Assembly: GCA_027492935.1 (NCBI GenBank)
Contig: JAPUDU010000313.1
Location: 1 to 36,953 of the forward strand
Reading direction: 5' to 3'
From: Fimbriimonadaceae bacterium
Lineage (GTDB): Bacteria; Armatimonadota; Fimbriimonadia; Fimbriimonadales; Fimbriimonadaceae
Length of the DNA stretch: 36,953 bases
Part shown: one piece after another, positions 25,813 through 31,088 of the stretch
Numbering within the stretch: the stretch's first letter is position 1
Layout of the letters: every line of letters starts with the position of its first letter
Translations under genes and position numbers: made by a program
Notes under the pieces: model-generated
What the model saw: the letters and a program-made list of their open reading frames with translations, nothing else
The model's database searches: none
What the model was told of the DNA's origin: nothing

Positions 25813-26937
25813 ATGGGCAGTGCGTATACACCTGGTTTGACGGTTAGTGCCGATACGGTAGTTGATCGACTTCGTCGTCTTCCGATCAAGGGCGAGGTTC
25901 TTGTGAAGGTCGGCGACCCGGTGGAACACGACACAATTGTTGCTCGGGCATTGCTCCCTGGCCCCCTCCAAACGATTCGTTTGTCAGAAAAGATGGGAAT
26001 TGATGCCAAGGAATCAACTCAGGAATGTCGTTTCCAAGTTGGTGAGCATGTCAATGCGGGAGATATTATCGGGGAGACAAAGGGTCTCTTTGGTAAATAT
26101 TTTAAGCAGACCGTGATTAGTGAATTTACGGGTGAAGTTGAATCGATTTCGGAAATTACCGGAAACGTTTTGATCCGTGAAGCCGCGATTCCAGTCGATA
26201 TGATTGCCTACGTTAAAGGAAAGGTTCTTGAAGTTCTTCCGGAAGAAGGGGCAATTATCCAGACTCGCGGGGCGATGGTTCAGGGCATTTTTGGTATCGG
26301 CGGCGAGCGCAACGGAGTGATCCGGATAGCGGTTGCGGATGCCAGTGAGGTGCTTGATGCGCAACACATACAGGAAACCGATGCAGGAAAGATTTTGGTC
26401 GGTGGGGCCGGGATCACGGCAGAAGCTTTGAAGAAAGTGAATGAAATTGGGGTCTTCGGGGTTGTTGTTGGTGCCGTAAAAGATGTTGATTTGATTGAAT
26501 TACTTGGTTATGACATTGGGGTTGCCATTACCGGGCAAGAAGATGTAGCGACGACTTTGGTCGTTACTGAAGGTTTTGGAAAGTTAAGCATGGCGGGGAG
26601 GACATTCAAGTTGTTGCAGGGTCTGGAAGGGCACTCAGCAAGTTTGAATGGGGCAACACAGATCCGCGCGGGCGTTATTCGTCCGGAAGTGATTTCACCG
26701 AGTGATACGGTCGGGGACGTGGCTCCGGTTCATAGTGGCAACGAATTAAAAGTTGGCACTCCGATCCGGGTGATCCGCGAACCTTACTTTGGTCAATTAG
26801 CTACGGTTACGGGCCTGCCAGCTCAACTCCAGGTTGTTGAATCTGGGGCTGAAGTGCGGGTTTTGGAGGCGAAGCTTGACGGTGGCGAAGTGGTCTGTGT
26901 GCCCCGAGCCAACGTCGAGATCATCGCCACATCATGA
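25813..26937 (+). CDS. conserved uncharacterised protein, lipoyl-like and KOW-like ends
   Basis: A 374-residue soluble protein. The N-terminal 130 residues (KGEVLVKVGDPVEHDTIVA, then VGEHVNAGDIIGET, then SEFTGEVESISEITG) look like a biotin/lipoyl-type barrel-sandwich fold, but no lysine stands in an MKM-type modification site. The middle (about 150-270) has GGAGITAEALKKVNEIGVFGVVVGAV and NGATQIRAGVIRPEVI, recurrent in a conserved family of unknown function from Chloroflexota, Armatimonadota and others, as I recall it. The end (GTPIRVIREPYFGQLATVTGLP and PRANVEIIA) resembles a KOW/NusG-like barrel. Its stop overlaps the next gene's ATG (ATGA, 4 bases), so it is coupled to the response regulator. 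Function unknown. Confidence 0.85.
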   Translation: MGSAYTPGLTVSADTVVDRLRRLPIKGEVLVKVGDPVEHDTIVARALLPGPLQTIRLSEKMGIDAKESTQECRFQVGEHVNAGDIIGETKGLFGKYFKQTVISEFTGEVESISEITGNVLIREAAIPVDMIAYVKGKVLEVLPEEGAIIQTRGAMVQGIFGIGGERNGVIRIAVADASEVLDAQHIQETDAGKILVGGAGITAEALKKVNEIGVFGVVVGAVKDVDLIELLGYDIGVAITGQEDVATTLVVTEGFGKLSMAGRTFKLLQGLEGHSASLNGATQIRAGVIRPEVISPSDTVGDVAPVHSGNELKVGTPIRVIREPYFGQLATVTGLPAQLQVVESGAEVRVLEAKLDGGEVVCVPRANVEIIATS

Positions 26938-27602
26938 AACTTATCGTAGTAGACGACGAAGAAACGATTGTTGAGACAGTCGAAAATAAACTCCGCAAGG
27001 AGGGGTACACGGTTTTTACAGCTGGTACAGCCGAAGAGGGGATGCGTCTTTATCGCTTGGTAAAGCCGGATCTCCTTTTGCTTGACATTATGCTTCCGCA
27101 GCGCAGTGGAGTGGATTTGGCCCGTGCGATCCGCAAGGACAGTACTGTTCCGATCATCTTTTTGACGGCCAAAGCGAGCGAGGACGACCGAGTAAAAGGA
27201 CTTGAAATTGCGGATGACTACATTGTTAAGCCGTTTAGTCTTGCTGAAGTTGCAGCCCGAGTGAAATCGGTTTTACGGCGTTCGAGTGGGGACACTCCGA
27301 ACGAGGCTTTGGAATCGGGAAACTTGCGCATCGATCCGAAAACTCACCAGGCCTGGCGTGATGATGAGCTTATGTCACTTTCACCGAAGGAGTTTGCTTT
27401 GCTTTACTTCTTGGTTCGGAACAAGGGGCAGGTGTTTAGCCGTGAGATTTTGCTTGATCGCGTTTGGGGTCAGGACGCTTATGTGAGTGCGCGGACGGTT
27501 GACGTTCATGTGCGCTGGTTGAGAGAGCGCGTTGAAGTAGAGCCGAGTAGCCCCGAGCGTTTGATGACGGTTCGAGGCGTTGGCTACAAGTTCTTGGGCT
27601 AG
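26934..27602 (+). CDS. OmpR/PhoB-family response regulator, no adjacent kinase
   Basis: A receiver plus winged-helix DNA-binding protein of 222 residues. The receiver has D7/D8 (VVDDEE), the phosphorylatable D51 (LLLLDIM), T78 (LTAK) and K99 (VKPF). The glycine usual between GLE and ADDY is missing (GLEIADDYIVKPF), a one-residue deletion near the alpha4 start. Residues about 125-222 are the OmpR-type effector (SPKEFALLYFL, YVSARTVDVHVRWLRERV, TVRGVGYKF). It starts inside the stop of the preceding gene, so the two are coupled. No histidine kinase is adjacent. Confidence 0.92.
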   Translation: MKLIVVDDEETIVETVENKLRKEGYTVFTAGTAEEGMRLYRLVKPDLLLLDIMLPQRSGVDLARAIRKDSTVPIIFLTAKASEDDRVKGLEIADDYIVKPFSLAEVAARVKSVLRRSSGDTPNEALESGNLRIDPKTHQAWRDDELMSLSPKEFALLYFLVRNKGQVFSREILLDRVWGQDAYVSARTVDVHVRWLRERVEVEPSSPERLMTVRGVGYKFLG

Positions 27603-27608
27603 TAAAAC

Positions 27609-27917
27609 CTAATCGGTTTTGTGCTTGCTTCGCTGACCAATTAGGCCTTGATTCTCTCGGCGGCGCCTGCGGAGCAGGAGTGCTTCGCGAGCCAGATCCA
27701 GATGGTACAGGGCAGTTGCGTTTTCTTCACATGAAAGATCGCGGCCTTGGAAATCGAGAAGTTTTTCGACAACGGTGTCGATTAAATCTTCAATTCGGCA
27801 ACCATTAATGCCTTCGACGGCGGGATCGCCATGTTGAAAGGTTATTTTGATAAATTCTGATTCTACGACCGCTGGATTTCCGTCCAGATGTCGAAATTTT
27901 TCCATGTTCTCGCTCAT
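27609..27917 (-). CDS. Acb2/Tad1-like small helical protein
   Basis: A 102-residue protein with the pattern I associate with the phage Acb2/Tad1-type family: ITFQHGDPAVEGINGCRIEDLIDTVV, then LLDFQGRDLSCEENATALYHL, then an arginine-rich helix ending RRRRRENQGLIG. Known members are small hairpins that bind cyclic di- or trinucleotides and block CBASS defence; homologues of unknown role occur outside phages. The first 20 residues differ and may be disordered. It sits between a response regulator and a mannosidase with no phage genes nearby. This assignment is from remembered motif pattern, not alignment. Confidence 0.6.
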   Translation of the reverse strand: MSENMEKFRHLDGNPAVVESEFIKITFQHGDPAVEGINGCRIEDLIDTVVEKLLDFQGRDLSCEENATALYHLDLAREALLLRRRRRENQGLIGQRSKHKTD

Positions 27918-27977: not shown

Positions 27978-30900
27978 CTAATGCTCAAGTGCAATGGTAA
28001 GAATTTCGAATGGAAGGTATCCGAAGTTAACAACCCCATCGGTGACTTCGAGTTCTTGGAGCGGTGTTTCTTCAAGATCGCATAGCCAAGCTCGCTTGAT
28101 GGGCAGCGCAGTGTGGAGACTGGCATGACCACGGGTGTTGTGGGCTTCATAAATGCGTGCGATTCTGTGGCTCGATTTTTCCGCTTTTTTGACGGCTTCG
28201 ATTACGAGGTTCCTTGAGCTCAATTGAATGATTGGATTGGGATTTGCTTCTGTACCTTTTTGCTTGGGGAGCGGAAGGACGTGGCATTGGGCATTAATGG
28301 CGTATGCGGCTTCGACAACGTCGCTTTGAGGGACTTGGTCGAAGTGAGGGAGGAATACATAGGTGAACTCATGAATGCCTCGGTCGCAGGTTGGATCAGG
28401 GGCTTTGGGGGAGCGCAGAAGAGATAGGCGTAAATTGGAGTTGTGGATATCGTGACCGTATTTGCCGGTATTGATAATTGCGGCTCCGTGTCCGCCTTCG
28501 CTGAGGTCAACCCATTTTTGGGCACAGACTTCGAACTTGGCCAAATCCCACGATGTGTTACGGTGAGTGGGTCGCTCAACGTTGCCAAATTGGATTTCGC
28601 AGGTTGACTTTGTGGTGTTGACATTGACGGGGAAGAGCACTTTGAGGAATTTATGGTCTTCTTGCCAATCCACCCAAGTATCGAATCGGATTCCGGGAGT
28701 TGGGCCGAGGCTGATTCGTTGCTTGATGGTGGACTTGCCGAAATGTTTGGTGATTTCGACGGCCACTCGGACAGGGCCTCGCTCGACGATTTCAAATGAT
28801 GTGCTTTTGACGAGATCAACTGCAGTTTCTTGGGCGAAGAGTTCGGTATCCCAGGCATCCCAGAAAGGTGGTCGGTCGTCGAGGAGTTGGAAAAGGTTGG
28901 CGAGTTTGCCGGGAATGATAAATTCCAGAGGCTCATCATCTTGACTCGTAATGCTGGTTATGTTTCCGTTTTGATCGAATCGGACGACCCACTCTTCATT
29001 TTCGAGCTTGCGATTGCTGACTTTGAGTCGTCGGAGATTATTAGACTCTTTAGTCGAAAAATCGGCGGCCGTGATGCGATTGCGCGCGGAAACTGGCGTG
29101 GCGAAGATTAGTTTTTTCTTGTCCCAGAGTTCAATTTCTTGGACGGGATGGGATTCTTCTCCGGTAATAATGGACTGAATTTCCTTGCCGACTAAGGATT
29201 CGGTTTCCCCTTGCGACTCTACGTTAGCCAGGTGGAATATGGCGGTTGGATTTTCGTAAGATTCCGTTTTGAGGTCGGCAGAAGAATTCTGGATTGCTTG
29301 GTCTATAGCTTTTGTAATAATGCTAATTGCTTCGGCATAGTCCCTTGCGGCTTCGTCGTAGACCTCTTTAACGGATGATCCGGGAATGATGTCGTGGAAC
29401 TGGTTGAGGAGGACGATCTTCCAGGCTTTTTCCAGTTCGGCTTGGGGGTACGACTTAGGATAAGTTGGATCGTAGGCGCAAAGAAGCTCGGCGTCACGGA
29501 GTAGGAATTCGCACTTACGGTTATTGGTTTTGCAGGCGGCTTGGCTGGTGTAAGTTCCTCGGTGGAATTCGAGATACAGTTCTCCTGTCCAAGTGAGCAG
29601 GTCGCGCGATTCTTCGATTGCGGTTTTGTAGAAATTTCGTGCGCTTGATTTTGACTCAATCATGGGAAGGCCGGGGGCGAGTCGGGCTCGGTTGAGTCGT
29701 TCGATATGCCATTCAGTTGGGCCGCCGCCGCCATCGCCAAAACCGAAGAGGTAGAGGCTGTGGTCGGAACGACCGTGATCGCGGTGGTTTTTGACTGATT
29801 GGGCGATCTGTTTCGGGGTGCAGTCGGCGACGTAGGTATCGGCGGGGGGGAAGTGAGTGAAAATTTTGCTCCCGTCAATGCCTTGCCAGTAGAACGTGTT
29901 GTGGGGGATTTTATTGGTGGCGTTCCAGCTCATTTTTTGAGTGAGGAAGGCTTCAATGTTGAACTTTTTCAGGATCTGGGGCAACGCAGCGGAATAGCCG
30001 AAAACGTCGGGCAGGAACATATCCACACAATTGACGCCGAATTTATCTTTGAAATAATTACGACCGTAAAGGAACTGACGCACAAGACTTTCGCCGCCGG
30101 TGAGGTTGCAATCGGCCTCTACCCACATCGAACCGACGGCCTCCCAATTGTTGGCTTTGATGGCGGACTTGACGCGGTCGAAGAGCTTGGGGTGTTCGAG
30201 TTCAAGCCATTCGTACTGGCTGGCTTGGGAGTGAACATAGAGGTGGCCTGGGTAACGCTCGGCGAGGCCGAGTTGAATACTGGTGGTGTGAGCCATTTTG
30301 AGGTGGGTCACGGAAAGGGGCCAGAGCCAAGCAGTGTCGAGATGGGCGTGGCCCATTGCATGGACGGTGTGGGCGGTTTCGCAGGTGATGCCACCGAGAA
30401 CGTTCTTAATGATTCGCCGGCACTCACGCCAAGATTTGCGATTGTTTTCTTGGAAAGTGTTGCAGACATCGTTCAGAGCGCGGAGGATGGCGGCGTAACC
30501 AGGATCATCTTCGGGGAACGACTCCATTAGGTCATAGGCGAATTCGGCATCATAGAAGAGTGGGAGTCGCTCTTCGTCAAGGAATGCGACTTTAAATCCG
30601 TTGTACGTTTCGGGTTGAGGGGTGCGGGGTTTTTCGGGTCGGAATACAGTGGTTTCTTTGTTATGGGCAAAAGTTTGCACGAGGAAGTCGATTTTTGTAG
30701 CGGTAGCTTCGAGGCGGAAAAATTCGTGGGCGAAATCGAGACCACCGACTTGGGTGTTGTTTTGCCAGAGGGTGCCTTCGACGTTCGGTGAGTACTCCCA
30801 GGCGAATTGGGGGTTAAGTCCGTAGGTAAGGATGGGAGCAAATCCTTCGGGCGGGGTTGGGATCTTGCCGGTGACGTGGTACCAACCTTCTTGGTAGGCG

Positions 30901-31088
30901 GGGCCCCAGGTTTGGCCTAGTTCGACTTTTTGCCAATCACTAGATTTTCGAGCGGCTTTTTCATCCGGAAAAGCCCCGATACAGAGTTTGCAGTCTAGAA
31001 GCGACGGCTGGACGATGAGAGCCTCTTTCAGTTGGAAATCGATGAATTGTCGGATACGTCGCTTGGTGTGACTGAGATGTTTTTCCAT
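27978..31088 (-). CDS. alpha-mannosidase, glycoside hydrolase family 38
   Basis: A 1036-residue retaining alpha-mannosidase. Zinc ligands H249 and D251 are in GHAHLDTAWLWP, and the nucleophile D361 is in MFLPDVFGYSAALPQIL. The helical bundle (about 540-600) and long beta C-terminal half (about 640-1036) fit the length of the Mns2C1/MngB-like branch. No signal peptide is visible, so the enzyme is probably cytoplasmic, acting on imported manno-oligosaccharides or host/algal N-glycan fragments. No sugar transporter is in the window. It diverges from the DprA-like gene over 37 bases. Confidence 0.93.
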   Translation of the reverse strand: MEKHLSHTKRRIRQFIDFQLKEALIVQPSLLDCKLCIGAFPDEKAARKSSDWQKVELGQTWGPAYQEGWYHVTGKIPTPPEGFAPILTYGLNPQFAWEYSPNVEGTLWQNNTQVGGLDFAHEFFRLEATATKIDFLVQTFAHNKETTVFRPEKPRTPQPETYNGFKVAFLDEERLPLFYDAEFAYDLMESFPEDDPGYAAILRALNDVCNTFQENNRKSWRECRRIIKNVLGGITCETAHTVHAMGHAHLDTAWLWPLSVTHLKMAHTTSIQLGLAERYPGHLYVHSQASQYEWLELEHPKLFDRVKSAIKANNWEAVGSMWVEADCNLTGGESLVRQFLYGRNYFKDKFGVNCVDMFLPDVFGYSAALPQILKKFNIEAFLTQKMSWNATNKIPHNTFYWQGIDGSKIFTHFPPADTYVADCTPKQIAQSVKNHRDHGRSDHSLYLFGFGDGGGGPTEWHIERLNRARLAPGLPMIESKSSARNFYKTAIEESRDLLTWTGELYLEFHRGTYTSQAACKTNNRKCEFLLRDAELLCAYDPTYPKSYPQAELEKAWKIVLLNQFHDIIPGSSVKEVYDEAARDYAEAISIITKAIDQAIQNSSADLKTESYENPTAIFHLANVESQGETESLVGKEIQSIITGEESHPVQEIELWDKKKLIFATPVSARNRITAADFSTKESNNLRRLKVSNRKLENEEWVVRFDQNGNITSITSQDDEPLEFIIPGKLANLFQLLDDRPPFWDAWDTELFAQETAVDLVKSTSFEIVERGPVRVAVEITKHFGKSTIKQRISLGPTPGIRFDTWVDWQEDHKFLKVLFPVNVNTTKSTCEIQFGNVERPTHRNTSWDLAKFEVCAQKWVDLSEGGHGAAIINTGKYGHDIHNSNLRLSLLRSPKAPDPTCDRGIHEFTYVFLPHFDQVPQSDVVEAAYAINAQCHVLPLPKQKGTEANPNPIIQLSSRNLVIEAVKKAEKSSHRIARIYEAHNTRGHASLHTALPIKRAWLCDLEETPLQELEVTDGVVNFGYLPFEILTIALEH

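Follow-up and report, generated by a model that had tools for sequence, protein, structure and literature searches.

Analysis of the window (the whole stretch of 36,953 nucleotides studied here, from a Fimbriimonadaceae bacterium) reveals a chromosomal gene whose product is, judging by sequence matches far beyond chance, a homologue of Tad1 (Thoeris anti-defence 1), a small phage protein that soaks up bacterial alarm signals. The homology, predicted fold, residue conservation, chromosomal fixation, and purifying selection are established by the comparisons below, and, on balance, we favor the explanation that the protein belongs to the Tad1 superfamily as a cellular member passed on vertically, and that it would form a nucleotide-binding ring buffering or sensing an endogenous cyclic nucleotide. 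In particular, since the gene is conserved, inherited, chromosomal, and without phage around it, the same signal-binding fold has probably been put to the bacteria's own purpose in the Fimbriimonadaceae and their sister family.

The open reading frame lies where an earlier note on this DNA had placed it (27609-27917, - strand, ATG start, 102 aa), and the motifs that the note had read in the protein are present: GINGCRIEDL (residues 36-45), FQGRDLSCEENATAL (residues 56-70), and LLLRRRRRENQGLIG (residues 80-94). The neighbors that it had named are recovered by Pfam as an OmpR-type response regulator and a GH38 alpha-mannosidase, and its remark that no phage surrounds the gene agrees with the window, in which zero phage-like genes are visible. 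The gene, its segments, and its immediate flanks are as follows:

26934-27602, + strand: response regulator (Response_reg and Trans_reg_C; Pfam), converging on the tad1-like gene with a 6 bp gap
27609-27917, - strand: chromosomal Tad1 homologue, 102 aa, apparently a single-gene unit (PHROG, phmmer, profile, Foldseek)
27657-27671, - strand: RRRRR (residues 83-87), which holds R83 and R87 (alignment)
27708-27752, - strand: FQGRDLSCEENATAL (residues 56-70), with Q57, C63, E65, N66, and A69 common to phage Tad1 (alignment)
27801-27836, - strand: QHGDPAVEGING (residues 28-39), with Q28, G30, G36, N38, and G39 common to phage Tad1 (alignment)
27858-27917, - strand: N-terminal 20 residues, MSENMEKFRHLDGNPAVVES (alignment)
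27978-31088, - strand: GH38 alpha-mannosidase (Pfam), on the same strand as the tad1-like gene, with a 60 bp gap

Farther out, the window encodes a zinc-binding dehydrogenase, a conserved 374-aa protein, and a DprA-family protein. An Rfam search of the window, in which a riboswitch near the tad1-like gene was sought, yields tRNA only.

The protein is assigned to Tad1 because profile, sequence, and fold comparisons lead to the same family. Specifically, PHROG_2428 matches it with E=3e-15; a single-sequence phmmer search of PDB sequences returns CmTad1 (8.6e-6), followed by phiKZ gp184 and CbTad1; a family profile (A1) built from 40 relatives returns CmTad1 (2.9e-14), phiKZ gp184 (2.3e-10), and CbTad1 (1.6e-9); and tblastn returns proteins annotated as Tad1 in Bacillus phages SBSphiJ7 and SPG24, with ~39-40% identity. 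The AlphaFold2 model (pLDDT 83) has short strands at residues 17-19 and 24-27 and helices at residues 42-57 and 64-89, and in a Foldseek search with this model Tad1 entries fill the first 20 places among the PDB matches (probability 1.00, TMq 0.55-0.73), the first unrelated entry after them having E=2; among the top BFVD matches are named Acb2/Tad1 hairpin proteins. The helical hairpin that the earlier note had expected is thus found, together with N-terminal strands, in the predicted model. Macrodomain matches (AF1521, E 0.08-0.6) are at chance level. Pfam and NCBIfam give zero family matches, and PF24729 (Acb2_Tad1_hairpin; cut-off 27 bits), the Pfam model on which the note's assignment could be checked, misses the protein at E<=10, which rules out Acb2 membership. 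Of the label "Acb2/Tad1-like," therefore, the homology to the sponge family stands, as Tad1, and the Acb2 half falls. Acb2 (the PF24729 hairpin; T4 Vs.4) is a related hairpin family by Pfam's naming, with a 71-aa member on a phage contig of the window's assembly; the fold match of T4 Vs.4 to the window protein is at chance level (Foldseek E 4.9).

Comparison with the phage reference proteins (CmTad1, 8kbb/8kbc/8kbd; CbTad1, 7uav/7uaw/8smd/8kbe/8kbf; SBSphiJ7 Tad1, UPI13470.1) shows homology over residues ~22-97 and the same predicted fold. In an alignment of 59 chromosomal and 19 phage sequences, the residues common to both forms are Q28, G30, N38, G39, E43, D44, Q57, C63, E65, N66, A69, A76, R83, and R87; of these, R83 and R87 are invariant in every chromosomal and phage sequence long enough to cover them. 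The two arginines align to CbTad1 chain residues R110/R114, equivalent to R109/R113 if the chain has a one-residue tag, and R109/R113 are residues that we take to be ligand contacts. They are also kept in the C-terminal domain of phiKZ gp184 and its relatives (8y6v), which is homologous to the window protein (profile E 2.3e-10), although gp184 differs from it in being a 230-aa jumbo-phage protein with a long N-terminal extension.

In the literature searched, Tad1, Tad2, and Acb2 come from phages and prophages (PMC12043709, PMC11722364), whereas a paper on a cellular Tad1 was not found. Unlike its phage counterparts, the window protein is encoded by a chromosomal, vertically inherited gene without phage context; it is shorter (102 aa, versus 121-142 aa in the Bacillus phage Tad1 group), carries A79 at a position that is W in roughly half of the phage forms, and has its own N-terminus. 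The earlier note had seen a departure from phage forms in the first 20 residues and in the arginine run, and SENMEKFRHLDGS, Q90, and H99 do mark the chromosomal clade; R83 and R87, inside the run, are nonetheless shared with phage Tad1. Within the first 20 residues, the SENMEKFRHLDG part is conserved across the chromosomal clade except in genera g20 and g29, and none of the phage Tad1 proteins read has it. The clade-specific N-terminus, Q90, and H99 count against our favored explanation in that they may shift the ligand preference. Together with the RRRRR on the last helix, they could also be read as signs that the ligand pocket was lost and the fold reused for protein or RNA binding, with the arginine-rich helix contacting nucleic acid; we consider such reuse quite improbable, as few positions in the chromosomal clade are conserved more strongly than R83, R87, and the loop residues common to phage Tad1.

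A survey of 291 Armatimonadota genomes with the family profile finds matches in 68. Of these, 63 are among the 85 genomes of the window's family and 5 come from another family (f5) of the same order; the remaining genomes in the phylum give no profile match. All 20 genomes of genus g20 have the gene, including what we take to be the cultured type strain Fimbriimonas ginsengisoli Gsoil 348 (G128, one contig), and 22 of the 85 family genomes are without it, so it is not essential. Most genomes of genera g1 (the window's) and g17 have two copies; the second copy in the window's assembly (G000:C125:2661-2966) is 73% identical to the first. The chromosomal forms are of two divergent types, an SENMEKFR type and a g20 type in which an RTED...DFSATGA tail is conserved at the C-terminus. 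One genome has one of each (G132:C6:909891-910175 and G132:C6:772237-772515), pointing to an old duplication or transfer. The RTED...DFSATGA tail ends the Fimbriimonas-type orthologs (L114, L116-L129), and the window type is without it.

The gene order around the tad1-like gene, for which the earlier note had suggested a look at neighboring genomes, is retained across genera. In g1, g4, g5, g17, g26, and g47, whole or as remnants, the block comprises mannosidase, tad1-like gene, response regulator, 374-aa protein, and dehydrogenase; the response regulator and mannosidase are members of this conserved order, separate from the sponge-like gene itself. In g7 and many g20 genomes, the gene adjoins an M61-type peptidase, a DUF423-like protein, and a copper-amine-oxidase-N-like protein, and in some f5 members it adjoins an M14-type carboxypeptidase (neighbor names in g7, g20, and f5 being read from sequence alone). 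F. ginsengisoli has the M61-type peptidase beside the gene and ORFs reading as ribosomal proteins L27 and L21 two and three genes off. No operon partner is constant across genera, so the gene looks like an independent single gene; this leaves no pointer to a pathway and counts against our favored explanation. The 374-aa protein (window:25813-26937) has no Pfam match and, where the block is of the mannosidase type, stays next to the response regulator. One database record titled "Methanoregulaceae archaeon isolate SJ84" (L059, JADZEW010000008.1) has nearly the gene order of a Fimbriimonadaceae bin (L058) and is probably mislabeled.

Among close pairs of orthologs whose synonymous sites are unsaturated, dN/dS is 0-0.06; in one pair (L036 versus L037), 27% of synonymous sites differ and zero amino acids. 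On the basis of these ratios and the 59 aligned chromosomal homologues, the window ORF is a real gene. The earlier note had offered two readings of it, a domesticated sponge tuning the cell's own cyclic-nucleotide signaling or a prophage relic. As to the first, retention by the cell is borne out by lineage-wide conservation, purifying selection, and conserved gene order, and the tuning is part of the conditional explanation set out below. The second, in which tad1 would be left over from a decayed prophage, is barely credible: the relatives are phage proteins, and a genuine Acb2-type hairpin gene lies on a phage contig of the window's assembly, but against this stand conservation over two families, gene order kept across genera, the low dN/dS, and the absence of adjoining phage genes in the neighborhoods inspected. 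As a recent event, a prophage relic is excluded. A terminase search in F. ginsengisoli, aimed at locating a prophage, found nothing.

Tad1 itself is a hexamer of dimers that binds gcADPR or cyclic di- or trinucleotides and blocks Thoeris or CBASS. On our favored explanation, a protein folded like phage Tad1, with N-terminal strands and a two-helix hairpin according to the model, would have its dimers joined in a ring, with pockets formed where protomers meet. Each pocket would comprise the Q28/G30/N38/G39 loop, the C63-E65-N66 turn (within FQGRDLSCEENATAL, the segment connecting the two predicted helices, 42-57 and 64-89, in the AlphaFold2 model), and R83 and R87 on the last helix, and may bind a cyclic or cyclized nucleotide without degrading it. 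The protein would thereby act as a housekeeping buffer or receptor for an endogenous nucleotide signal. A tentative extension, which we hold somewhat less firmly, is that the Fimbriimonadales use a Tad1-type ring as a core cellular buffer or receptor for a nucleotide signal, possibly c-di-AMP or an undescribed one, and that this ring is possibly the reservoir of the phages' Tad1. The cellular clade makes it testable whether cells use sponges to set the threshold of cyclic-nucleotide signaling.

Candidate ligands were surveyed through their synthases in the 85 family genomes (SMODS, ThsB-TIR, TIR_2, Cas10, GGDEF, and DisA). SMODS (CD-NTase) is present in 13 genomes, all 13 of them carriers of the tad1-like gene, and ThsB-TIR in 16, 13 of them carriers. 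The SMODS distribution (13/63 carriers versus 0/22 non-carriers, Fisher p=0.018; by genus, 9/21 versus 0/11, p=0.013; both raw for phylogeny, sampling, and genome size) would suit a self-protection brake, in which a sponge permanently encoded on the chromosome absorbs stray CBASS (or Thoeris) signal, makes such systems tolerable, and raises the threshold of abortive infection; a ThsA-ThsB pair in the window's own assembly would also suit it. We regard such a brake as deserving weight but unlikely: SMODS and ThsB are both missing in 41 of the 63 carriers, and TIR_2 is also missing in 23 of those 41 (including 17 of the 34 that are >=90% complete), yet the gene is strongly constrained. In these 17 near-complete carriers, SMODS, ThsB-TIR, and TIR_2 go undetected, and a convincing Cas10 is likewise not found. 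ThsB shows no association with the gene (13/63 carriers versus 3/22 non-carriers, p=0.55), which argues against the brake and against a strict Thoeris partnership, and the Thoeris contig is possibly a binning contaminant. Specifically, this contig (C275; L113) has a GC content of 54%, versus 50.5% for the window, and the assembly has an estimated contamination of 2.45%, so the contig may belong to another organism. It encodes ThsB (155 aa) and a SIR2-STALD ThsA (478 aa). Beside this pair is a Gabija-like arrangement, consisting of a gene for a GajA-type protein and the beginning of a helicase-like gene.

A type III CRISPR signal was likewise rejected: the 41 carriers yield only four Cas10-palm matches, which score 21-28 bits, and one of the four coincides with a GGDEF place. 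GGDEF is not detected in four g20 carriers (G129, G130, G137, and G146), which keep the gene, making c-di-GMP unlikely as an obligatory ligand; other g20 members have 4-18 GGDEF domains. Because carriers without each exist, the surveyed immune nucleotide systems and diguanylate cyclase are not needed for retention of the gene. DisA, the c-di-AMP synthase, is present in 83 of the 85 genomes (70/70 good ones) and is the only surveyed synthase in essentially every carrier, which makes c-di-AMP weakly the leading candidate. Non-carriers have DisA equally, so it does not single out c-di-AMP, and that c-di-AMP is the ligand is a guess that we consider rather doubtful. Binding of cAA by Tad1 has been reported as weak (PMC12043709).

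Phylogenetic analysis places 59 chromosomal and 17 phage sequences on either side of a single branch with support of 98/90, in a tree of 80 columns with a midpoint root and inner forks that are often unresolved. Domestication or an ancestral cellular origin is well supported for the chromosomal gene, and an ancient phage origin is possible. The reverse direction, in which phages captured Tad1 from an ancestral cellular family, would concern origin only, as the function could equal that of our favored explanation. The single branch would fit it, as would the depth of the chromosomal clade (it spans two families of the order, and G132 combines two divergent types) and the IMG/VR result: a single-sequence scan for the chromosomal form found nothing, and no IMG/VR virus with it was found (a plasmid search likewise found nothing). 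We judge capture improbable, however, given the midpoint root on 80 columns and the breadth of the phage forms; since these come from phages of many hosts and the cellular form is found only in one Armatimonadota order, one old acquisition fits better. Purifying selection on the cellular clade makes the origin of nucleotide sponges testable. The phage contig of the window's assembly (C288) carries genes for a terminase large subunit and an amidase, together with a small-subunit-like ORF and a holin-like ORF, and its 71-aa Acb2-type hairpin protein (L062:3444-3659, PF24729 58 bits) is encoded between the holin-like ORF and the terminase genes. The only other above-cut-off PF24729 matches within the family are on G129:C14 and G034:C15, and the window's assembly seems to hold both a phage sponge and its cellular relative.
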